The position numbers were made by a program, and so were the translations under genes. Below the pieces are notes generated by a model, which was not told where the DNA came from, made no database searches, and worked only from the letters and a program-made list of their open reading frames with translations. Below are positions 6,326 to 21,739 of a stretch of 31,243 bases of DNA, one piece after another. Position 1 is the stretch's first letter, and each line of letters opens with the position of its first letter. Origin of the DNA: a virus; IMG/VR virus record IMGVR_UViG_3300003323_000399, positions 1-31,243 of that record; one strand, written 5' to 3'.

Positions 6326-8665
6326 TCAAAACTCCCACTTGCCAAAGCGGAACGCTTCCCACGCATCAGGGACGTTGATCGGCCACGGTCTGCCGTCTGG
6401 TGTTCGCGCAAAGTCGGGGAGGATGCGCATCAGCGCTGTGTATTCTTCCTTCGAGCCCTGGCCGATCGGAACCTCGGTCACGTTTTCGTCGTGCGTGTGC
6501 ATGACGACAGGGTATCCGTGAGCTTCGAGTCGCAGCAGCGCGTGTGCCTGAACTTCACGAGCGAGATGCGACACAACGTTCTGCGTCAGAACCCCGCCGT
6601 ATAGCTTCATCCGCTGCCAACCTTCCTTGCCTTTGGTGGCGTTGCTGTTCCATCCCTCGTAACTGAGTTCCACTTCCCAAGGGCTCGCGTAATCTCGGCG
6701 CGACTGTTCGAGGCGAGGCGAGTGATAGCGGATGCATCCGCCGCTCGGAGGCAGGCAATACAGACAATCGCCAATCATCTGATAGACGACGCCGCGATAT
6801 TGGAACGCTTGCCCGTACCCCGTGCGATCGTGATCGGCACCGGGAAAGCGTACAGCGCTAATCGCTGCGCCTTCGAGCCCGTAGAGTTCGGCGCGTTCTT
6901 CGGCATAGTTGCCGCGTGCGTCGCGGTTAAACTTGTTCCGCGTCTGGCCGCCCCACAGCTCGACGGTGTTCGGGTTCTCGCGTCGCTGAGCTAGCGCCAC
7001 CTTTTTTATTTCGTCGTCGTCACCGATCAGCTTGTCGGCACCAAAGCGTTTCCAACCGCCAATCCATGCGCCGAAACCTCCGGCGAGAACAGGTAGCTTC
7101 CCCCATTTTTGCCGATCCTCGTGATGCTTGCGATGTTCCTTTTTATAATCGATGTAAAATTGAAGCGGCTTCCCGGTGAGTTTCGACGCCATCGCTTCAT
7201 AGATCATCCCGTGCGTGCGAAACACATCTAAGACCCACTCTTCACCTGCTAGAGCTGCGGTAACGACGGCTTGAATCGCAGTGAAGTCGGCACTTATGAG
7301 CCGCGTTCCTGGGCGAGCGATGATCATCGACCGCAGACAATTTGCGATCAGTTCGAGCGCGTCGCCGTATGCTGCTTCAACTGCTTCGAGCCGACGCGTT
7401 GCGACGATCGAGAGGGCGAGTTCGACTTGCGCGGGGTGATTGAAGTTGCCTTTATAGAGGTTCGCCACCTGCACCGCGCGTCCGTTCCAAAGCGAGGTGT
7501 GCGCGCCGTAATACACGTATTGATCGTACAAGCGCCCTTCGGCAGTTGAATGCGAGCGCATCGCGTACAGCTTTCTCACCGAGCCGAACGCGAGAATCTG
7601 GCGGATCTTCAACGCACGGAGCACGTTCAACGGGTATGGCCGCGTGAGCGCGTCGGCGACTGTTTCTTCGTCTAGGTCGGGGAGGAAGATTCCTTGCGCC
7701 GCCATCCATGCGAGCAATTGTGCTGCCTTGCTCGCTTCGGCAACTCCAGTCAACCGGAACAACTCGGCGTTGTATTTCGCGTAAGCCTGCTCGACGATGC
7801 AGATGCAGTCTTCGACCGCCTTCCGATCGATCTGCATCCCGCGAGCGTTGATGCGGAAATCCATCTGCCAGACCGCAAGCTCGTGCGGCGATAGATCAGC
7901 GATCTTTGTCGATGCCTCAGCTTCGGCAGCAATGTCTGTTTCGTTGTAGCTATAAAGGCGCTCGAACTCCGCCGGCTTCGTCTCGGGCGTCCACCTTATG
8001 TCGGGATCTTTCGCGGTTGGATTCTTCGGCTTCGTCAGCGTGCGCATGATCGCCGCGCCTTCGACATCTTTCGGTGTCACCAGGCGCAGCACATTGCCGG
8101 CGTCTTCCATCGCACCGGGGTATGCGCTCGCGCGAGCCTTCGCCATACAGCAGCGCAATTGCTCGATCTTCAGCTCGGGCCATCCGAACTTTGGCACGCA
8201 ATGAAGATTCCAGACGCGCCACTCGAACATCGTGTTCCACGCTTCGAGGATGCCGCCGCCGGCCACGTGAGCGATTAGATCGTGCGGGGGCGGCTCGCCT
8301 GGCTTCCATCGGCGGCGCCCTTTGCCGTCCTTCAGATCGTACGCGTAGCAGAGCACGCGGAACGACGGATGCAGCACATAGTTAACTGTGCCGACCGCTT
8401 TCAATCCTCGGTTTTGATCGGATAGGCCCGGCAGTGACTCCCACCAGCCGAACGCAGGTTTCCAAATCCACTCGCCGGCTTTGCGCTTCGTCGGCGCCTT
8501 CCACTTCCACTCGCCGGGCTGCGGCGGATCGACCCATCGATAGCCCGCCTCGGAATAAGTTTCGTAGTCGTGTTCGGGCAGAACAGTTGCGATGAACGGC
8601 CCGAGTTCGATTATTTGTCCGTTGAGCATGTGACCCAAAATCAAGGCCGGTCGCGCGCTCCCCAT
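6326..8665 (-). CDS. Phage family A DNA polymerase with 3'-5' exonuclease domain
   Basis: 779 residues (767 if ATG 8629 is used; neither start has a strong ribosome site). Copies phage DNA. Exonuclease domain at ~30-250: D33/E35 (H-D-Y-E-T-Y-S), W143-N144 (W-N-T-M-F-E-W) and Y240...D244 (Y-N-E-T-D). Polymerase domain ~450-730: motif A SADFTAIQAVV with D460, motif B GKLPVLAGGFG with K523, motif C V-M-H-T-H-D-E with D726/E727. Family members usually read D-(F/Y)-S-x-I-E in motif A; here Q465 replaces the Glu (codon CAA, checked). The arginine normally 4 residues before the motif B lysine is shifted by one. It works with the ssDNA-binding protein upstream and the primase/helicase genes. Confidence 0.93.
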   Translation of the reverse strand: MGSARPALILGHMLNGQIIELGPFIATVLPEHDYETYSEAGYRWVDPPQPGEWKWKAPTKRKAGEWIWKPAFGWWESLPGLSDQNRGLKAVGTVNYVLHPSFRVLCYAYDLKDGKGRRRWKPGEPPPHDLIAHVAGGGILEAWNTMFEWRVWNLHCVPKFGWPELKIEQLRCCMAKARASAYPGAMEDAGNVLRLVTPKDVEGAAIMRTLTKPKNPTAKDPDIRWTPETKPAEFERLYSYNETDIAAEAEASTKIADLSPHELAVWQMDFRINARGMQIDRKAVEDCICIVEQAYAKYNAELFRLTGVAEASKAAQLLAWMAAQGIFLPDLDEETVADALTRPYPLNVLRALKIRQILAFGSVRKLYAMRSHSTAEGRLYDQYVYYGAHTSLWNGRAVQVANLYKGNFNHPAQVELALSIVATRRLEAVEAAYGDALELIANCLRSMIIARPGTRLISADFTAIQAVVTAALAGEEWVLDVFRTHGMIYEAMASKLTGKPLQFYIDYKKEHRKHHEDRQKWGKLPVLAGGFGAWIGGWKRFGADKLIGDDDEIKKVALAQRRENPNTVELWGGQTRNKFNRDARGNYAEERAELYGLEGAAISAVRFPGADHDRTGYGQAFQYRGVVYQMIGDCLYCLPPSGGCIRYHSPRLEQSRRDYASPWEVELSYEGWNSNATKGKEGWQRMKLYGGVLTQNVVSHLAREVQAHALLRLEAHGYPVVMHTHDENVTEVPIGQGSKEEYTALMRILPDFARTPDGRPWPINVPDAWEAFRFGKWEF

Positions 8666-8706
8666 GACTCGGGGGAATGATCGGCGCCGGGCGTTGTTGC
8701 CGCTTT

Positions 8707-8895
8707 CTACGTAGGGCGCGGATTAGGCGCCTCGCTCGTCACGCTAGATGCAGCTTCGACACCCGTCACCGACGGCCCCATAGAACGCCACCGGCTCACG
8801 GAGTTTTTTCGATCGCCGGTTAACGACCCGTGGAAAACCGGCTCGGAGTCCATCAGCTCCGAATTCATCTCTGCTCTAGCTTCAGCGTATATCAC
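8707..8895 (-). CDS. Possible 62-residue protein between ssDNA-binding protein and polymerase
   Basis: GTG at 8895 is preceded by GGTGAAG at a good distance. Residues MIYAEARAEMNSELMD, then PVFHGSLTGDRKNSVSRW and a Ser/Thr/Pro-rich end. Third codon positions are about two-thirds G or C, in line with neighbours. No family. The ribosome site lies inside a long inverted repeat (8897-8961). The 307-bp gap between the flanking genes otherwise holds only repeats, so this may be real or chance. Confidence 0.35.
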   Translation of the reverse strand: MIYAEARAEMNSELMDSEPVFHGSLTGDRKNSVSRWRSMGPSVTGVEAASSVTSEAPNPRPT

Positions 8896-8896
8896 G

Positions 8897-8961
8897 ACTT
8901 CACCGCCTGCGGTTGGCCGCGTGGCATTCGCGGGGATTTAACGACCCGCAGACGGTGAAGT
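8897..8961. repeat. 16-bp inverted repeat covering a ribosome site
   Basis: ACTTCACCGCCTGCGG (8897-8912) and CCGCAGACGGTGAAGT (8946-8961) pair at 15 of 16 positions with a 33-bp loop. It begins just past the stop of the ssDNA-binding protein gene. On the leftward RNA the stem would include GGTGAAG before GTG 8895. An 11-bp direct repeat, TTAACGACCCG, also occurs at 8820-8830 and 8938-8948. Confidence 0.5.
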
Positions 8962-8971
8962 GTGAATCACG

Positions 8972-9949
8972 TCACACGATCATCCCGTGCGCTCGTGCCG
9001 TTGCTTCGTCCCACCCGGCCGCCTGAAGCGCGGCCCACGTCACGCCGGGACCGGCTTTCGCCGTAACCTGCGGACCAGCGGGAGGCGGCGGAGGCGGCGG
9101 GGGTGGCGTCGCAGCCGCCATAGGAGCCACGGGCGCGGGCGGTGAGCCGGGCGGGCGCAGAATGCCAGGGTGCGGAGCGACACCCGTTGGCGGCGCCGTG
9201 GGAGGCAATACGGGCGCACCCGGCGGGGGTGCTGCAACTCCCCCAGGAACGCCAGGCATCGCGGGCGCCGAGGGAGGGCCAGGCGGCTGGCTTGCATTCG
9301 GCGCGAGCGCACCGGCCGGAACACGCTGCATGTTCGCTGGTGCCGCGCCCTGCCCGAATCCCGCTTGGCGAGGATCGGCGCCCGCGCTCTTTATTTCGCC
9401 ATCGGGGTGATACCCCGCGAGCGCGACCATCGCGTGATTGACGTAGATCCCCGGCTTCCCCATGTCGCCGTTAGAGTCGATCGAGCCCGCCACCTGCACG
9501 AACATACCGGGCCGAATCTCGCTCGGGTCGATCGCCTTCGTGCCGTCAGCGTTCCACGTCGTCGGAGGGAACGACGACTTGAAGAACACGACCCAATGGC
9601 CCGGCCATCCTTCGTTATCGCAAGGCTTGTTGCCTTCGTCGTTCGGGATCTGCGAATCGCCGTCTACGATCTTCCACGAAAACCGTTTCGTCGTAGTGCC
9701 GTCCTGATTGAACAAGCCGGGGAATCCTGCGGTGCCGACACCCCAGGCAATCGCGCCCCACTCGGTCTGCGCCCAGTGAGCGGTTCCCGCCTTTTCGTAA
9801 CCGACGCCAAACGTCCATTCCTGGCGCGGGCGCTGATCCTTCGTCAGCAACGGTTTGCCCGCTTTGTCTTTGTCGCGGGCTTTCGAGACTGATCCCGTCA
9901 GCATGCGGCCGACCGGGAACGTGAGATATTTGATCAACGGAGTAGGCAT
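8972..9949 (-). CDS. Phage single-stranded DNA-binding protein (DUF2815-like) with long Pro/Gly tail
   Basis: 325 residues from ATG 9949 with GAGGA upstream. Residues ~1-185 match the DUF2815 / phage ssDNA-binding pattern: FPVGRMLTGSVSKARDKD, WAQTEWGAIAWG, FSWKIVDGDS, GHWVVFFKSSFPP, R-P-G-M-F-V-Q-V-A-G and GIYVNHAMVALAGY. Residues ~200-295 are a Pro/Gly/Ala linker with a run of nine prolines. The end, TWAALQAAGWDEATARAHGM, resembles the short helical 'LxxAGW-(T/D)-(D/E)...HGM' tail seen in phage ssDNA-binding proteins, likely a partner-binding tip. It lies directly upstream of the polymerase, its likely partner. Confidence 0.82.
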   Translation of the reverse strand: MPTPLIKYLTFPVGRMLTGSVSKARDKDKAGKPLLTKDQRPRQEWTFGVGYEKAGTAHWAQTEWGAIAWGVGTAGFPGLFNQDGTTTKRFSWKIVDGDSQIPNDEGNKPCDNEGWPGHWVVFFKSSFPPTTWNADGTKAIDPSEIRPGMFVQVAGSIDSNGDMGKPGIYVNHAMVALAGYHPDGEIKSAGADPRQAGFGQGAAPANMQRVPAGALAPNASQPPGPPSAPAMPGVPGGVAAPPPGAPVLPPTAPPTGVAPHPGILRPPGSPPAPVAPMAAATPPPPPPPPPAGPQVTAKAGPGVTWAALQAAGWDEATARAHGMIV

Positions 9950-9981
9950 AGAATCCTCGTTTGATGTGGGAAGCTAGAAGG

Positions 9982-9997
9982 TTGACGGCGCCGTCAA
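9982..9997. promoter_or_regulatory. Palindromic operator-like site (copy 5)
   Basis: TTGACGGCGCCGTCAA, 32 bp upstream of the leftward start at 9949. On the minus strand its TGA is the stop codon of the gene 9994-10284. Confidence 0.75.
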
Positions 9998-10284
9998 ATG
10001 TTGTCAATCCATGCGTAGTATTCGCGTGAAGCCGGGCACCGGTGCGCCTCGATCGTCTCCAGATGCGCCCGCGTGAACGGCGGACTGTCGCCGAGATTGC
10101 GCCCCGGATAGTGCCGATTGACAACTTGCCGCCACAAGATCGGCCCGACGCCGAGCATATGAAGGCGCGGCCATCGGATCACATCCGTAGCGCAAGGATG
10201 ATTGTGATTCTCGTGATCCCCCTCGTGTTGAGCTTCGAGCGTGCATTGAACGAGCCCGCTTGCGGTTCGGTTGGCGCATCTCAT
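9994..10284 (-). CDS. Small protein with Cys/His zinc-binding-like motif
   Basis: 96 residues from ATG 10284, overlapping the upstream stop (ATGA). The N-terminus has C3 and C14 followed by H20 and H24 in the form C-T-L-E-A-Q-H-E-G-D-H, a C-x5-H-x3-H motif common in small phage proteins and likely to hold zinc; more His and a Cys follow (NHNHPCATD). The C-terminal half is polar with helices (TRAHLETIEAHR). Function unknown. It ends inside palindrome copy 5, just before the ssDNA-binding protein gene. Confidence 0.65.
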   Translation of the reverse strand: MRCANRTASGLVQCTLEAQHEGDHENHNHPCATDVIRWPRLHMLGVGPILWRQVVNRHYPGRNLGDSPPFTRAHLETIEAHRCPASREYYAWIDNI

Positions 10285-10565
10285 TTTAGCCGCCGGTCGA
10301 TCACTTCGACCCCGAGAATGCGTGCGAGCGATTCGCCATGCATGGCGCCCTTCGCGTGCCGCTGAACCTCGTCAGCGTCGTCGAAGGTATAGACGCTAAT
10401 CGCGCCTCTTCGGCTCACTGCGCCTACGCCCACCTTTGGCCGCGTCGTCATCTGCGCATATTCGTCGATCACGATGCAGCCGAGCGACACGCGTTCCATG
10501 TGCCGCCCGAGAAAGTAGCATGCAATCCCGAACGCAATCGCACCGATGATTGCGAGCGCCGTCAC
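10281..10565 (-). CDS. Small membrane-anchored protein, function unknown
   Basis: 94 residues from GTG 10565 (GTGA overlap with the nuclease gene). Residues 2-20 (TALAIIGAIAFGIACYFLG) form one membrane span. The rest is soluble and cytoplasmic or periplasmic: GAVSRRGAISVYTFDDADEV, QRHAKGAMHGESLARILGVE. Its place between replication genes is curious for a membrane protein. It might tether a replication factor to the membrane, but there is no direct evidence. Confidence 0.6.
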   Translation of the reverse strand: MTALAIIGAIAFGIACYFLGRHMERVSLGCIVIDEYAQMTTRPKVGVGAVSRRGAISVYTFDDADEVQRHAKGAMHGESLARILGVEVIDRRLK

Positions 10566-11743
10566 CCTGGCGTCGCGCCGAACGCCTTGCGCGCCTCCGT
10601 GCCGTCGTCGGGAACTAGCTTCATCGCAGACGGCGTCGGTTCGGCGTAAACCTTCACCAACGATTCATCCGCGCCTGCCTTGATCGCCTGCGTGGGCGTG
10701 ACGACTTGGCATTTGCGAGAATTCGGATCGGTGTTCACCGCGCGGAAGTCTTTAGCCGGTGCCTGCATCCTTCCGAGCCCGAGCACGTCTTCGATCGTCA
10801 CGCCGGGTTTCCACTTCAACGGCGCACCGCCGCTTTCCATCTTCGCACCCGGCACCCGCTCGCCCTTGCGGAGCAACGATTCGATTTGCGTCTCTAAGCC
10901 TTCCTTGCGCGCTCTCAACACCTCGAAGGCGTTGCGCAGGATCGTCCACTCGGTTCCCATCGCCTCGGGCGTGAGTTCGAGCGGCGATTCTGCTTTACGC
11001 GTCCACTCGGATATATGCCCCGCCGCGAGCTGCAACGTCGGGCACACGTGGCGAGCGGGGCAATGATGAGTCATGCAGTGAGGGCCAGCGACCGCCTCTA
11101 GCGATTTGTTCCACATCAGCTCGCCGGGCTTGCGAAGCGCGCTCATTGCAGCGTTGTGAGCGATCGTCGCGAACGCGCGAAGGTCGGCGCCGTTCACGAT
11201 CCATTCGCGGATCGGCCCCGCGCGGTGGAACGCGCGAGGTTGAACGATCGTCATTTTTACGGTCGTCTCTTCATCGTTCAGCCCGAGCGTGTCGAGAAGC
11301 CCGATCGCGTAGGCCATCACCTGCCAATTCTCGAACACCTCCACCAGATCGAAGCCGTATTTGTAGTCCGGCACGTGCAACACTTGCTCGATACCGTCAT
11401 ACGACGCGCCGTCAGGCTCGCCCCAACACGCCGTCGGATGTATCCGAGTGATGACAACCGGGACGCCGGAGTAATGCCCGTACCGCAGCGTGCGCGCCCA
11501 CATCTTCGCGCCGTGGATCATGTCGTAATCGACCTTAATCCCCTTCACCGGCGTTTCGGTTCCGTAGGCGACTTCGTTCCCCTTCGCGTACTGTTTGGCG
11601 ACCCAATCGGCCGCGTTGCCTTCGAGCGATTCGGGCGTGTCAGGCTCGGGCGGAAGATCCCGAGACATCTGAACCCACGCATTGCAAGCTACCGTTAGCG
11701 CCAGGCTCGAAGGCGCGATCGGTGCGTGATAGCCGGCCATCAC
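10562..11743 (-). CDS. PD-(D/E)XK nuclease, DUF2800 type, with Cas4-like iron-sulfur cysteines
   Basis: 393 residues from ATG 11743 (ATGA overlap). The core nuclease motif is G-E-P-D-G (D111), then HVPDYKYG (D126 and K128) and a downstream Q141...Y145 helix (ENWQVMAYAIGLLD), as in RecB-family nucleases. C20 lies in an N-terminal helix (SSLALTVACNAW) and C223, C228 and C234 in CMTHHCPARHVCP; one early plus three late cysteines is how AddB/Cas4-type nucleases bind a 4Fe-4S cluster. The ~130-residue C-terminal part has long helices and a basic, Gly-rich stretch. Probable role: DNA end processing in phage recombination or replication. It lies next to the ssDNA-binding protein and a proline-rich protein. 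Confidence 0.82.
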   Translation of the reverse strand: MMAGYHAPIAPSSLALTVACNAWVQMSRDLPPEPDTPESLEGNAADWVAKQYAKGNEVAYGTETPVKGIKVDYDMIHGAKMWARTLRYGHYSGVPVVITRIHPTACWGEPDGASYDGIEQVLHVPDYKYGFDLVEVFENWQVMAYAIGLLDTLGLNDEETTVKMTIVQPRAFHRAGPIREWIVNGADLRAFATIAHNAAMSALRKPGELMWNKSLEAVAGPHCMTHHCPARHVCPTLQLAAGHISEWTRKAESPLELTPEAMGTEWTILRNAFEVLRARKEGLETQIESLLRKGERVPGAKMESGGAPLKWKPGVTIEDVLGLGRMQAPAKDFRAVNTDPNSRKCQVVTPTQAIKAGADESLVKVYAEPTPSAMKLVPDDGTEARKAFGATPG

Positions 11744-12822
11744 TTCACCCCGAATAGCTTGCGATCGACTTCGCCAACGAGATGCGCATTCTCCGGTGCA
11801 GACAACGCCCCGACGCCTTCGAGGCCCAGTTCGGAACAGACCGTTTCCATGTCGGTTTGCGTGATCTGATTCGCAGTCAACGCCTTGTTGAGCTTCACCA
11901 CCAGTTCAGGGAATGAAATAGCCGCAACAGATCCACCGGCAGTCGCCGAAGATGGCGCCGGGGGCGCGACAGTAGGGTTTACAGGTGCCACCGGTGCCAC
12001 GCTGGGAGTCGCATTCGGCGGCGCTTGGGGAGTCACCGGGGGCTGCGGCACCATGACCGGCTGACCGGCGTTGGACACTCCGTCATTTGGAGGCGGCATC
12101 GGCACACTCGCGGCACCGTTCGCAGAAAGACTCACCGGCGGGGCGGGCGGTGGCGGGGTAGGCACAGCAAAGGAAGGCGGCGGCGGAGGGGGCGGCACGG
12201 CTGCGTTTGGGGGCTGCCCCACAGCGGGTGCGGCCGCATTGGTAACGACGGAAAGTTCCGCTTCCACGGCTTTTTTGACGGCGTCGTCAAGTTTTCTTTT
12301 GTACCTCCACGAACCGTCGTTGTTCTTCGTCCGTGCCTCGGAATGGATGCGGGCATCCCAGGGGACGCCTTTTGAGTCGCGGTCAGGTACAGATGGGGCA
12401 GCCGGGGCAACTGGTGCAGGCGAGGCAGTGTTCGGTGTCGTCGAAGGCGCCGGGGCAGCAGACGGAGCCGCCGAGACGGGTGAACCGCTCGCAGTCGGGA
12501 AAGGGAGAACGGTAGCGCCACCTCCGAACGCCTGGCGGGCTGCATTGGCGTCGTTGTCGATTTCGCCGGTATCTTCACGGACGCCGATCAGCGCGGGCGT
12601 TTTCACGCCGGAGCCAGCCGGCAAGCCCTTCGCGAAGGCCGCTCGCGCCGCTGCGCTCACTGCATCGTCGTTCGCCTGTTGAGCGTTACCCTGCCGGGCC
12701 GCTTCGCTCGCCGCGTAACGCGCTTCACGCTCCGCGTTCGCGTTGATCGTCCCTTCACATATCGCAATGATCCACCGAAGGGTCGCGCTGTCTTCTCGAT
12801 CAGGATGGAACTCAATACGCAT
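11740..12822 (-). CDS. Proline/alanine-rich phage protein with WDxRIH-DGxWR motif
   Basis: 360 residues from ATG 12822, GGAGG 9 bases upstream. N-terminal ~60 residues are helical and charged. Residues ~150-185 hold the motif VPWDARIHSEARTKNNDGSW-RYKRK, well known as a small conserved module in phage and proteobacterial proteins of the recombination neighbourhood, of unclear function. The region ~190-300 is a very Pro/Ala-rich linker. The C-terminal ~60 residues (FPELVVKLNKALTANQITQT...GVGALSAPENAHLVGEVDRK) form a helical module. First gene of the leftward replication operon, divergent from the helicase. Confidence 0.65.
   Translation of the reverse strand: MRIEFHPDREDSATLRWIIAICEGTINANAEREARYAASEAARQGNAQQANDDAVSAAARAAFAKGLPAGSGVKTPALIGVREDTGEIDNDANAARQAFGGGATVLPFPTASGSPVSAAPSAAPAPSTTPNTASPAPVAPAAPSVPDRDSKGVPWDARIHSEARTKNNDGSWRYKRKLDDAVKKAVEAELSVVTNAAAPAVGQPPNAAVPPPPPPPSFAVPTPPPPAPPVSLSANGAASVPMPPPNDGVSNAGQPVMVPQPPVTPQAPPNATPSVAPVAPVNPTVAPPAPSSATAGGSVAAISFPELVVKLNKALTANQITQTDMETVCSELGLEGVGALSAPENAHLVGEVDRKLFGVK
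12275..12290. promoter_or_regulatory. Copy of the palindromic site inside a coding region
   Basis: TTGACGGCGTCGTCAA; read on the minus strand it is TTGACGACGCCGTCAA, identical to the site at 16881. It falls within the codons for L-D-D-A-V-K of the gene 11740-12822. It could be a real internal site or chance use of common codons. Confidence 0.35.
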
Positions 12823-12841
12823 TTTCTAATGCCTCCGCCGG

Positions 12842-12871
12842 TTGAGATGGCGGGCGATATTGATGTATGTT
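12842..12871 (+). promoter_or_regulatory. Possible rightward promoter overlapping a palindromic site
   Basis: TTGAGA (12842-12847), 18-bp spacer, TATGTT (12866-12871, 4/6). The predicted start near 12878 lies inside the palindrome at 12870-12885, leaving a leader of about 23 bases before ATG 12901. Confidence 0.4.
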
Positions 12872-12885
12872 GACGGCGCCGTCAA
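12870..12885. promoter_or_regulatory. Palindromic operator-like site (copy 6) in the divergent intergenic region
   Basis: TTGACGGCGCCGTCAA, the only full copy between the divergent starts at 12822 (leftward) and 12901 (rightward), and so able to control both. Leftward it can also serve as -35 (TTGACG, 17 bp, CAATAT). The rightward start is only 15 bp away, with no clear ribosome site. Confidence 0.75.
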
Positions 12886-12900
12886 ACTGTACGAACCGCA

Positions 12901-14679
12901 ATGCTTCGAGACTATCAACACGACTTAAAACAGCGCATATACGAGGCTTGGCACGCTGGCCACCGCAACGTCATTGCTACGATGGCGACCGGCGGTGGAA
13001 AAGCCGTATTGAACGGCGCCATTCTTCAAGAGTTCGACGGCCCGGCAGCCGTGACCGTTCATCGATCGCCGCTCGTGTCGCAGCTCGCATTGACTCTCAA
13101 CCGCGAACACGTGCCGCATTCGATCATCGCTCCAAAGCAGTTGATCCGCGAAATCATCCGGCTAGAAGTCGATACGCACGGCAAGTCGTTTTATCGAGCG
13201 ACGGCGCCGATCCGCGTCGCCAGCACGAAGACGCTAGCGAATCGCGACGGCAAAGATCGTTGGTTCGACCAATGCAAGCTCGCGCTAGTAGACGAGGGGC
13301 ATCACGTTTTAGCGGATAGCGAAGTCGCGCGAGCGCTGCATCTGCTGCCGAATGCCTGGGGGCTTTTCGTCACGGCCCACGCGTGCCGCGCGGATGGGCT
13401 CGGGTTGGGGCGGGCGACGAAAGAAAACCCCGAGCGCGACGGACTCGCCGATGCGTTGGTCGTCGGCCCGCACGCACGGTATTTGATCGATCGCGGGTTT
13501 TTGTGCGATTGGGACATACGTTGCCCGCCGTTGGATATTGACATCTCCGACATTCCGATCGGTGCGTCGGGCGACCTTGTTCAGAAGACACTGCGCGAAC
13601 GTGTGCACGCCTCGAAAGTTCTCGTTGGCTCGATCGTCAAAGAGTACAAGCGCCGATGCGAGAAGGAAGGGCGCGCGTTACTCGGGCTGACGTTCGTCGT
13701 CGATAAGGAAGAGGCTGACAAAACCTGCAAGGCATTCCGCGAAGCAGGCGTGCCGACGGAAATCGTCACCGACGACACGAGCATCGCCGCTCGCGCAATC
13801 ATCATGAAACAGTTCGCCGCCGGGAAGCTGCGGCAGCTCGTGTCCGTCGATGTGCTGGGCGAAGGGGTTGACGTGCCGGCCGTCGAGATAATCTCGCTCG
13901 GGCGTCACACCGAGTCATGGCAGGTGTTCTGTCAACAGATGGGGCGAGGCACACGACCGCTAATCACTGACGCTGCAATCTGGGAACAATGGGGCAATCT
14001 CTCGAACGATCAGCGCATCGCCGCGATTGCACGAAGCCCGAAGCCCCGCTTTTACGTCCACGATCACGTGGGCAACGTGATGCGCCACTACCTGCGGCGC
14101 GGGTCGTTCGACTCGCAGCAGGAATACACTCTCGATCGCCGCTCCGGCCGCGAGAAGCGCGACCCGAACGCAATCAAACTGCGCACGTGCCAGAACGAAG
14201 AATGCTTCAAGCCGTATAGCGCGATCCTTTTGCGGTGCCCGTACTGCCAGACGATGAAGCCGCCACCGGATCGACGCGGAGCGCCCGAACAGGTGGAGGG
14301 CGACTTAGAAGAACTCGACTTCGCCATCCTCAAAGCGATGCGCGGGGAAATCGAGCGCATCGACGGAGCGCCAACGATTCCTCACAACGTCACGGGCATC
14401 GTGGCCGAATCGATCCGCAAGAACCATTATCTGCGACAAGTCGCTCAGGCACCGCTGCGTGAGGCAATCGCGCTTTGGTCCGGGTGGCAGCGCGATGTGA
14501 TGCATCTGCAGGATCGCGAGATTTACCGCTTATTCTGGCATCGCTTCGGAATCGATATTGCCTCCGCGCAAGTTCTCGGCGCGCGTGAGGCGGGTGAGCT
14601 TCAATCGAAGATCCGCGCCGAGTTAGAACGTAACAATATAGTGAGGTTGGACCATGGCACCGCCGCTGCTGTCGCTTGA
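12901..14679 (+). CDS. SF2 DEAD/DEAH-like helicase with altered Walker A and C-terminal zinc ribbon
   Basis: 592 residues. Superfamily 2 layout: Q-like N-terminus (MLRDYQHDLKQRIYEAW), motif I M-A-T-G-G-G-K-A at 28-35, motif II L-V-D-E-G-H (D131, E132), motif III F-V-T-A-H (158-160), R-A-D-G-x-G-L, motif V VDVLGEGVDVP (~317-326) and motif VI Q-Q-M-G-R-G-T-R (345-352). Zinc ribbon C430, C435, C446, C449. Two departures: motif I ends K-A rather than K-T/S (codon GCC, checked) and T-A-H replaces T-A-T-P. It resembles RadD/ComFA-like helicases used in phage replication or recombination. The short leader has no obvious ribosome site. Confidence 0.87.
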   Translation: MLRDYQHDLKQRIYEAWHAGHRNVIATMATGGGKAVLNGAILQEFDGPAAVTVHRSPLVSQLALTLNREHVPHSIIAPKQLIREIIRLEVDTHGKSFYRATAPIRVASTKTLANRDGKDRWFDQCKLALVDEGHHVLADSEVARALHLLPNAWGLFVTAHACRADGLGLGRATKENPERDGLADALVVGPHARYLIDRGFLCDWDIRCPPLDIDISDIPIGASGDLVQKTLRERVHASKVLVGSIVKEYKRRCEKEGRALLGLTFVVDKEEADKTCKAFREAGVPTEIVTDDTSIAARAIIMKQFAAGKLRQLVSVDVLGEGVDVPAVEIISLGRHTESWQVFCQQMGRGTRPLITDAAIWEQWGNLSNDQRIAAIARSPKPRFYVHDHVGNVMRHYLRRGSFDSQQEYTLDRRSGREKRDPNAIKLRTCQNEECFKPYSAILLRCPYCQTMKPPPDRRGAPEQVEGDLEELDFAILKAMRGEIERIDGAPTIPHNVTGIVAESIRKNHYLRQVAQAPLREAIALWSGWQRDVMHLQDREIYRLFWHRFGIDIASAQVLGAREAGELQSKIRAELERNNIVRLDHGTAAAVA

Positions 14680-15271
14680 AGAACGTTCCCAGTTGGAGAA
14701 GTTGTTGGAGGAACACGCCTCGACCGGCGTGCGTCTGCGTCAGGCGCAGCAAAATGCGCACGATTCGTTGCATGCGGTTCTTAACTTCGTGCACTCGCGC
14801 ATCTCGGATCGCGTATATGCCGAACGGATCACCGTCAGAGATACGACCTACGCGGCGCGGGAACAAATCAATTTGGCGATTTCGGATGCGCTCAACCCAG
14901 GGCTGTCAGCGGCGGCGGTTCTGCCCCGCATTCGCGAGACGCTTAGCGTAGCGCTCAACCTGCTGGACATTGCATCCGCGTTCAAGGGGCTGCCGCCTCC
15001 GACGCCAGGGAATACCGCGACCCTGATCAACGCCGCGCGAGACGCGATCCGAATTCGCGATGCTCAGCGCGTGCTAGGGACACCGTTTATTCCTGACTCC
15101 GCCGATAACTTCAAGCTGGCGTGCGCCGCTGAAGATCAGTTCAGGGCTGATGCGGCGGGACTCGTGAGTGGCGAAGCGATCATGCGTCAGCGCGTGCAGA
15201 AGGACGCCGCGCGAGACGCTTGCTGCGCCAATCATGCAATGGGCGGCACGGGAGTTTGCAGCGATGCCTAA
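14654..15271 (+). CDS. Hypothetical helical phage protein
   Basis: 205 residues from ATG 14654, overlapping the helicase end by 26 bp; GAGG lies 12 bases upstream. Residues ~5-60 form a charged coiled-coil-like helix (LEERSQLEKLLEEHAS, RLRQAQQNAHDSLHAVLNFV). The middle (LNPGLSAAAVLPRIRETLSV) and following parts are also helical. The C-terminus has a Cys pair (DACCANHAM) and a lone Cys. No family recognised. Translational overlap suggests linked production with the helicase. Confidence 0.65.
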   Translation: MAPPLLSLEERSQLEKLLEEHASTGVRLRQAQQNAHDSLHAVLNFVHSRISDRVYAERITVRDTTYAAREQINLAISDALNPGLSAAAVLPRIRETLSVALNLLDIASAFKGLPPPTPGNTATLINAARDAIRIRDAQRVLGTPFIPDSADNFKLACAAEDQFRADAAGLVSGEAIMRQRVQKDAARDACCANHAMGGTGVCSDA

Positions 15272-16943: not shown

Positions 16944-19199
16944 ATGCGAATTACATACGGGGCGCGTGCCGACGAACTGGGCGTCGGTGCGTTGTACGAC
17001 TTGACGTGGCCCCAGTTTGTTGAATGGCTCGCCCAGCACCCGCGACCGCAATCGCATATATCCCTCGCCGAATATCCCGCGCTCGCCGCAGCACCGTCCG
17101 CCAGTCCCGAGGGGCAACGGCTCGCAGCGGCGAAGATGGGCGCTTGGATCTGCTTTGCGCAGTTCGACGGGAATCGCCGCCACCTCGCACACAACCCACG
17201 CGGGTGCGCTGTAACGCTCGATCTAGATTACAGCGGGCTTGACGCCCAGGGGATCTGCGACCGGCTCAAGGGCTACACGTTCGTAGCGTATACAACCTTT
17301 GGCCACACGAATGAGCGTCCGCGCTGGCGCGTGATCGTACCGTTAGCAGGCGAGACCAACGCGGCCACGCACCGGGCCACCTGGGCGGCGCTCAATCATC
17401 TGTTCGGCGGAGCGGCCGACGTATCGGCGAAGGACATCACGCGCCTTAACTATCTGCCGGGGCCGTGCGTCGCTCCGAGCAACACGCAGATGTGTCAAGG
17501 CGAAGGCGTTTTATTTTCGGTAGTGCCCGCTCCACCTGAGACACCCGCCGCGCTGAGTGAAGGCAGCGACGGCCCGGTGGAAGGGTGGAGCGGGCCAGAC
17601 GACGACGATGAACTCGTGCGTAAGATCTGCGCGATCATCATGCGCCCCGAAGAACGACTCGGGTCGGGCAAGTCGCTGTTTCAAGCGCTATGGGAAGGCG
17701 ACGCCGATGCGCTCGCCGATCGCTATCCGCCGAAAGATCCGAGCCAGCGTTGGGAATACACGCGCGCCGATCTGGCGTTGATGAACGAACTTCTATATTT
17801 CACCGGCCGCGATGAAGAACGGTCGATGCGGATCGCGCTGCAGGCCGGCTGCGTGACTGTACGCGGCGAGCCGCACGAGGCGGAACGTAAACTCAAATAC
17901 GCATTGAAGGTCGCGCAGAAGGGCGCACCGCGCGTCTACAACTGGCCATCGCTGCCGGTGCTGTCTGCCCCAGGTGCCGAGCCCGACACCGTCACCGCGA
18001 TGGGCACGCTCGACTTAACCCGCAAGCCGAACGGCCAGTTCGCTCCGACGTTGCTCAACATCACGCAGGTACTAGCGCTGCCTCAGATGCCGCGCCTTGC
18101 GTTCGACGTGTTCCGGGGCGAGGTGATGATCGCGCCCACCGGCACCGAGGAATGGCGACCCATCGACGACGTGGTAACGACGCGCATCATGATGGATTTC
18201 GAGCGCCTGGGATTCGCGACGATCGCTGTCGAGTATATGCGTCGTGCGATCGATGAAGTCGGCAACCGCCAGACGTTCGACAGCGCGATTAAATGGCTCG
18301 ACTCGCTGGAGTGGGACGGAACGCCGCGCATCGATCGATTCTTCGCAGCGTACGCCGGCACGGAAGACGACAACTACACGCGCGCCGTCTCAGCGTACAC
18401 ATGGACCGCGCTTGCCGGCCGCGCGCTCGTGCCGGGCATCAAGGCAGACATGGTGCCGGTGTTGATCGGCGGGCAGGGCGCACGCAAGACGTGGAGTCTG
18501 CAAGCGCTCGTGCCGCACCCCGATCACTATGCGGAGCTGTCGTTGATGGATCGCGACACCGACACCGCGAGACTGATGCGCGGCAAGCTCGTGTGCGAAA
18601 TCGGCGAGCTACGCGGACTGTCGAAGCGCGACCTTGAGTCCGTTAAATCGTTCATCACCCGCACGCACGAACAATGGATTCCCAAATATCGGGAGTTCGC
18701 TATCACCTTCCCGCGTCGATGCCTGATGCTGGGCACGACGAACCAACACCAATTCTTAGAAGACGATACGGGGAACCGCCGCTGGCTGCCGATCGTCGTC
18801 TCGAACCTGCAGCGTGAAGCGATCGAACGTGATCGGCTGCAGCTATGGGCGGAGGGCGCCGCGCGCTTCCGGCAGTCGGGCATCGCCTGGCGTGACGCCG
18901 AGTCGCTGGCCGCCACTCGCCATGCGCTCCACATGGTCGTCGATTCATGGGAGACCGCAATCGAGCGCTGGCTGATCGAGATACCGATTCCGATGCTCGG
19001 GGAGACTCAGCCGCCGATGCCGCCGTGCGAGCGCCCGTTCCACATCGCCGACGTACTGCGCGGGGCGCTCAACATCCCACCCGAGCGCATGAACAGGGCG
19101 AGCGAAATGCGGGTCGCGCGGGTGCTGCGAGCGCTCGGATACGAGGTGAAACCGGTCTGGATCAACGGAAAAACGATCCGTCGATGGGTCAAGAACTGA
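16944..19199 (+). CDS. Primase-helicase: PrimPol-like N-terminus with VirE-type SF3-like ATPase
   Basis: 751 residues. N-terminal ~190 residues carry a primase-like pattern: T-L-D-L-D (D93, D95), Y-T-T-F-G-H-T (H121) and RPRWRVIVPL (125-134). Residues ~225-300 resemble the linker region of such primase-polymerases (SLFQALWEGDADALADRYPP, ADLALMNELLYFTGRD). The ATPase is of virulence-associated E type: Walker A IGGQGARKT (508-516), C-E-I-G-E-L (551-556), GTTN (597-600), F-L-E-D-D-T-G-N-R-R-W (604-614). A C-terminal winged-helix-like part follows. It likely opens and primes the phage origin. The non-coding region directly downstream has origin-like repeats. Confidence 0.87.
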   Translation: MRITYGARADELGVGALYDLTWPQFVEWLAQHPRPQSHISLAEYPALAAAPSASPEGQRLAAAKMGAWICFAQFDGNRRHLAHNPRGCAVTLDLDYSGLDAQGICDRLKGYTFVAYTTFGHTNERPRWRVIVPLAGETNAATHRATWAALNHLFGGAADVSAKDITRLNYLPGPCVAPSNTQMCQGEGVLFSVVPAPPETPAALSEGSDGPVEGWSGPDDDDELVRKICAIIMRPEERLGSGKSLFQALWEGDADALADRYPPKDPSQRWEYTRADLALMNELLYFTGRDEERSMRIALQAGCVTVRGEPHEAERKLKYALKVAQKGAPRVYNWPSLPVLSAPGAEPDTVTAMGTLDLTRKPNGQFAPTLLNITQVLALPQMPRLAFDVFRGEVMIAPTGTEEWRPIDDVVTTRIMMDFERLGFATIAVEYMRRAIDEVGNRQTFDSAIKWLDSLEWDGTPRIDRFFAAYAGTEDDNYTRAVSAYTWTALAGRALVPGIKADMVPVLIGGQGARKTWSLQALVPHPDHYAELSLMDRDTDTARLMRGKLVCEIGELRGLSKRDLESVKSFITRTHEQWIPKYREFAITFPRRCLMLGTTNQHQFLEDDTGNRRWLPIVVSNLQREAIERDRLQLWAEGAARFRQSGIAWRDAESLAATRHALHMVVDSWETAIERWLIEIPIPMLGETQPPMPPCERPFHIADVLRGALNIPPERMNRASEMRVARVLRALGYEVKPVWINGKTIRRWVKN

Positions 19200-19474
19200 T
19201 CCGATCGGCGGTTCGCCTTACGACCTTACGACCCTTACGACCTTTTCTTTAACCTTTCCTGAAAAAACTACTGTTAAATAGAGGGGAATATGGGGCGTTG
19301 GGGAAAGGTTGAAGCAAGGTCGTAAGGTCGTTAGGTCGTAAGGCGGGATCGGCGATTGATCGGCGCGCAATGATCCGATCCGATCGATCGGCGATCCAAC
19401 AATCAACGGGTTATCCATTGTTGCGCGGCTCGGGCTCGCGCGTGTAGCGTGGCAGGAAAACGGAGGGTCGATCG
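19200..19474. other. Candidate replication origin (non-coding, repeat-rich)
   Basis: A 275-bp gap after the primase-helicase gene. It holds the long inverted repeat 19214-19345, an AT-rich stretch at ~19243-19290, seven GATC sites in 50 bp (19347-19396), an inverted repeat CAACAAT/ATTGTTG (19397-19403 and 19417-19423), and TTATCCATT (19411-19419, 7/9 match to the E. coli DnaA box). Iterated sites, an easily melted stretch and an adjacent initiator-type gene are the usual parts of a phage origin. Function is inferred. Confidence 0.55.
19214..19345. repeat. Long imperfect inverted repeat made of TTACGACC iterons
   Basis: Left arm 19214-19259 and right arm 19302-19345 pair at roughly 40 of 44 positions, separated by 42 bp. 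Each arm has three 8-bp units: TTACGACC at 19218, 19226 and 19235, and the reverse complement at 19318, 19326 (one change) and 19334. The outer ends (CGCCTTACGACCT / AGGTCGTAAGGCG) pair perfectly except for the junction unit. Confidence 0.85.
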
Positions 19475-21610: not shown

Positions 21611-21739
21611 GTGAAGACGCGTCGGCATCACAACAACGACGGGCGCCGCCAGATTCGCACCGGGGGCACGCGTAAGTTCGTCAAGCGACTCGCTCGATCG
21701 CTTCGAGTGCCGATCGGCGCGAAAGACGCACGGAAGTGA
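21611..21739 (+). CDS. 42-residue basic protein between terminase subunits
   Basis: GTG 21611 to TGA 21739, overlapping the large terminase start by 4 bp (GTGA). Sequence MKTRRHHNNDGRRQIRTGGT then RKFVKRLARSLRVPIG. The pattern R-R-H-H-N-N-x-G-x-R-Q-I-x-x-G-x-T recurs in many phage genomes as a tiny gene near terminase genes, as far as I recall; role unknown. Very basic, so DNA or RNA binding is plausible. Easily missed because of its size. Confidence 0.65.
   Translation: MKTRRHHNNDGRRQIRTGGTRKFVKRLARSLRVPIGAKDARK

Follow-up and report, generated by a model that had tools for sequence, protein, structure and literature searches.

The vapE gene and the repeats behind it

The IMG/VR record IMGVR_UViG_3300003323_000399, whose 31,243 bases make up the window analysed here, belongs to a tailed phage whose genes include those for portal, major head protein, scaffold and terminase. 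It also has a replication set of its own, consisting of a family-A type DNA polymerase, a gp2.5-like SSB, an exonuclease, an SF2-type helicase, a VRR-type endonuclease and a VapE primase-helicase. VapE is a common and poorly explained replication protein of phages, prophages and satellites. The gene and the features that follow it are:

16944..19199, + strand: VapE-type primase-helicase, proposed initiator (751 aa; PF05272, PHROGs, AlphaFold, Foldseek, phmmer)
19216..19242, + strand: left iteron array, three copies of CCTTACGACC, spacing 8 and 9 bp
19243..19317, no strand: AT-rich spacer, proposed opening site, with a purine-rich + strand and ~60% AT
19318..19343, - strand: right iteron array, three inverted copies spaced 8 and 8 bp apart, with CCTAACGACC as the middle copy
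19346..19397, no strand: hairpin rich in GATC (7 sites within 50 bp), not an origin-class feature
19397..19423, no strand: CAACAAT/ATTGTTG, a short inverted repeat that overlaps TTATCCATT and is probably incidental

The VapE protein consists of a primase-like N-terminal part with a DxD motif (D93, D95), a VapE helicase domain at residues 452-653 (PF05272, E 4.8e-58), and a C-terminal domain at ~695-751 which is winged-helix-like in the AlphaFold model (helix-helix-beta hairpin, pLDDT near 90). Its PHROGs matches are to DNA helicase/primase families. The top Foldseek match, and the best in the PDB, is PriRep1 with dsDNA (7pds; E 2e-22, ~20% identity), which is also matched with phmmer (E 3e-30) and which is itself annotated as 'similar to D. 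nodosus vapE'. The proposed initiator belongs with the self-loading helicases of PriRep1/VapE type.

The left array starts 17 bp past the vapE stop codon, with CCTTACGACC units at 19216, 19224, and 19233 on the + strand facing inverted units at 19318, 19326 (one mismatch), and 19334 on the - strand. With up to one mismatch allowed, these six are the only matches to CCTTACGACC in the 31 kb, a number reached in 0 of 100 shuffles. A 330-bp sliding scan for paired inverted iterons scores the array at 14.6, against a maximum of 9.4 elsewhere in the window. The six-unit array is unique in the window and above chance. The initial annotation had described arms of ~45 bp with ~40 pairs and three units each, which agrees well with the ~42 pairs formed by 19214-19259 and 19302-19345 in a single-strand fold (z -8.1 as DNA, -8.2 as RNA; 0 of 200 shuffles equally good). 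An AT-rich region at the loop had also been noted, and AT content between the arms is 58-61% vs 39% window-wide. The spacer further contains an imperfect inverted pair, TTTAACCTTTCC / GGAAAGGTTGAA. Scans for Rfam families, tRNAs and terminators returned no matches.

Recurrence of the layout in VapE relatives

Most VapE relatives drawn from IMG/VR and from annotated phages carry the same arrangement. Facing 8-mer iterons, with one mismatch allowed, lie directly 3' of vapE in 69 of 88 loci vs 2 of 1185 control windows, where the locus set includes close relatives and the control windows include coding DNA. A strict version, with a minimum of two exact 7-mers on one side and two inverted copies opposite, finds the layout in 62 of 89 loci vs 4 of 1749 other windows from these loci and none (0) of 445 dinucleotide shuffles. 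It is also present in 10 of 24 further chromosomal loci, a non-redundant set thinned for similarity, vs 1 of 311 control windows; hosts in this set include Xenorhabdus, Providencia, Arsenophonus, Burkholderia-group, and Nitrosospira-group bacteria. These counts bear out the earlier placing of a candidate origin directly 3' of the primase-helicase gene. They also answer the proposed search for such arms in other phages: the layout recurs behind vapE, with different words.

Typically, three units at 9-bp intervals are followed by a spacer (median 62 bp) and by three inverted units at intervals of 9-10 bp. Spacer AT is above that of its locus in 69 of 69 cases, by a mean of 0.19. The top strand of the spacer is purine-rich in 66 of the 69 loci (mean 0.58), possibly as a priming or strand-opening signal, and GGGGA-like tracts are frequent near the right arm.

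The remaining 19 of the 88 loci score under the array threshold, and no array is present 3' of the distant VapE genes in Phocaeicola and Ruegeria phages. The closest relative found (L001, 60% identity) does not keep the exact word and has a weaker array, with a score of 9.4. An exact search for the doubled word matched 103 stretches in IMG/VR, none of which has an inverted arm nearby, and by inspection the recurrent matches resemble coding repeats (GGTCGTAAAGGTCGTAA, Gly-Arg-Lys). Because these matches lack inverted arms and are coding-like, the word itself is no family marker. A search of open-access literature found no account of such arrays as a general feature of VapE phages. Within that scope, the class is apparently widespread and little described among proteobacterial phages.

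Some relatives, L187, L188, L192, and L193 among others, have extra iteron copies within the last vapE codons, upstream of the main left array, at -22 and -12 from the stop codon. The Streptococcus satellite phages Javan312 and Javan4 (L113, L114) carry repeated words in both orientations 3' of distant VapE genes; these words (GGTTGGAA/TTCCAACC; ACTA-rich words) are more loosely spaced.

The repeated word and the stem

The iteron word varies by lineage, being TTACGACC here and AGACAACC, GTACCAAC, GGAACCAC, TGTTCCC, and others elsewhere. A further example from another lineage is CTGTACCAAC. Words of different lineages tend to end in CC or ACC. Once helicase-domain similarity is removed, word similarity correlates with similarity in the last ~60 VapE residues (partial r 0.42, 0 of 500 permutations), a figure in which shared ancestry partly remains. 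Helicase-domain similarity itself has no positive residual correlation with the word (-0.17). This co-variation is as would be expected if the winged-helix domain reads the iterons, and it supports the initial suggestion that the arms could serve as iterons for the primase-helicase. A precedent is SaPI Rep, whose C-terminal domain recognises iterons and whose origin lies directly downstream of the rep gene (PMC7581432).

The main alternative puts origin recognition in an extruded stem-loop, either a hairpin or a cruciform, as in the archaeal plasmid pRN1 and as suggested for Bordetella phage BIP-1 and its primase-helicase. This reading is serious because pRN1 requires an intact 100-bp stem-loop at the same place, downstream of its replication gene (PMC4234260). 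The array fold in the window is strong (z -8), and cross-arm pairing is possible in the 69 relatives, with a median of 26 pairs and a median z of -5.2. Inverted iterons, however, pair automatically. Arm spacing is identical in only 11 of the 69 loci, and stems are bulged because left spacing is mostly 9 bp and right spacing 10 bp. The difference in spacing failed as an exclusion of pairing in most relatives, whose arms can still pair when one-base bulges are tolerated, and a compensation test was therefore used. In this test, facing and non-facing copies across the stem were compared in 28 non-redundant loci with 3+3 copies.

Facing copies differ at 0.65 positions per 8 bp vs 0.64 for non-facing copies, and 3238 of 5000 permutations are at least as low. 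As facing copies are no more alike than non-facing ones, cross-arm mismatches are uncompensated; the mismatch in the middle right unit of the window likewise has no compensating change. A weak facing-copy tendency appears once 2-bp flanks are included (194 of 5000 permutations), which array edges could also produce. With mismatches uncompensated and arm spacings usually different (9 vs 10 bp), arm pairing is probably a side effect of the iterons being inverted. A pRN1-type stem-loop origin would conserve the integrity of the stem instead of a repeated word; in these loci, words are repeated and are conserved within each array. Judged from the loci compared, the repeated word, rather than the stem, is what relatives keep. 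The hairpin or cruciform, put forward initially as a possible working part, is therefore an improbable origin signal.

Bordetella phage BPP-1, near-identical to BIP-1, was inspected by eye and shows no comparable iteron array 3' of its primase, and the gene that follows is convergent. For both reasons BPP-1 is neutral on the origin reading.

A probable iteron-type origin and its surroundings

The six-iteron array is very probably the replication origin of this phage, of the iteron type, which the adjacent VapE protein would bind, open and prime. The C-terminal winged-helix domain of the VapE-type primase-helicase would bind the six iterons, and the facing arrays would position two helicase assemblies so that they flank the AT-rich spacer, for a putative bidirectional start. 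The helicase would then open the spacer, and its primase-like part, or the replisome of the phage, would begin DNA synthesis. Continued synthesis would fall to the family-A polymerase, gp2.5-like SSB and helicase that the phage encodes.

By analogy, the best reading is that the array and VapE would work like a SaPI Rep/ori replicator. In the SaPI ori, iterons flank an AT-rich region on both sides. As in that system, the array lies directly 3' of the initiator gene and its short iterons face each other around an AT-rich region. The SaPI replicator (Rep or PriRep1) also has a self-loading initiator helicase with a C-terminal DNA-binding domain (PMC7581432) and multiple short iterons in an ori directly 3' of rep (Ubeda et al. 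2007, 2012, as described in PMC7581432). It differs in that the element here is a phage, not a satellite, with its own polymerase and SSB, different words, and ~20% identity to PriRep1.

Other systems share parts of this design. In phage P4, the gene arrangement differs from the order of vapE and array. The P4 alpha protein is similarly a primase-helicase whose C-terminal winged helix binds origin repeats, but its primase is of the Toprim type (PMC4234260). In the SCCmec Cch2 origin, the C-terminal domain of the initiator helicase also binds direct repeats just downstream of its own gene; however, these are 5-nt iterons in direct repeats within 23 bp, and the helicase is of another family (PMC7581432). 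ORF904 of pRN1 combines primase, helicase and winged helix with a ~100-bp stem-loop just downstream of the gene, but is described as lacking iterons and requires the structure (PMC4234260), whereas the arms here consist of iterons and show no cross-arm compensation.

Two further explanations concern the position of the array. A regulatory operator array or a transcription terminator would fit the intergenic location between vapE and the genes that follow, and phages often have tandem operators. No promoter-like or terminator-like site was found in the array region, however, and the AT-rich spacer in 69 of 69 loci, together with the constant place behind vapE, favours an origin, which makes this explanation very unlikely. 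Least probable of all is a pac site, where the small terminase would bind and packaging would start: terminase genes do come after the array in this phage (large terminase at 21736) and in some relatives, with the small subunit two genes past vapE in Caulobacter phages Jess A and BL94, but APSE-1 and YeP5 keep the array behind vapE although the next genes are not terminase, and the iteron word tracks the VapE C-terminus.

The origin reading may extend beyond this phage. It is rather likely that proteobacterial phages and prophages hold a large class of VapE origins of one fixed layout (~3 iterons 9 bp apart, a ~60 bp AT-rich spacer, and ~3 inverted iterons 9-10 bp apart), with words that would be set by the C-terminal winged helix and change fast between lineages, giving a natural set of mutually specific initiator/origin pairs. 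If the array is the VapE origin, the replication start could be read from sequence in such phages, and a role of vapE as initiator, beyond that of helicase, becomes testable. Dozens of natural initiator/word pairs would then be at hand for learning how word recognition shifts in a small winged helix, and stem-loops behind such genes could be re-read as inverted iterons instead of structure.

Of the neighbouring details in the initial annotation, the cluster of seven GATC sites in 50 bp is real (19347-19396; 0 of 200 shuffles match), while its assignment to the origin class is not supported. GATC is ~3-fold over-represented window-wide (319 vs 110 expected from base composition). The cluster belongs to this phage and not to the origin class, because relatives carry fewer GATC 3' of vapE than predicted from their loci (43 vs 113). 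It folds as a second hairpin right behind the iteron array.

The inverted repeat reported around a DnaA-like box is likewise present, as CAACAAT (19397-19403) and ATTGTTG (19417-19423), 7 bp each. The box itself, TTATCCATT (19411-19419), differs from TTATNCACA at two positions, and sites with two such mismatches number 97 in the window vs 111 in shuffles. As these stand at chance level, TTATCCATT is no evidence for DnaA. A DnaA-dependent origin was rejected, this single two-mismatch site being all that was found for it.

Cumulative GC skew, proposed initially as a check, has no turn at the 19.3 kb array. It tracks gene orientation, with its minimum near 11.5 kb where orientation turns, and is uninformative on origin position. 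The replication genes lie on both strands in this part of the genome (region 6326-15271), with the polymerase, SSB, and exonuclease running leftward (6.3-12.8 kb), the helicase, endonuclease, and VapE rightward (12.9-19.2 kb), and the skew minimum at their divergence.
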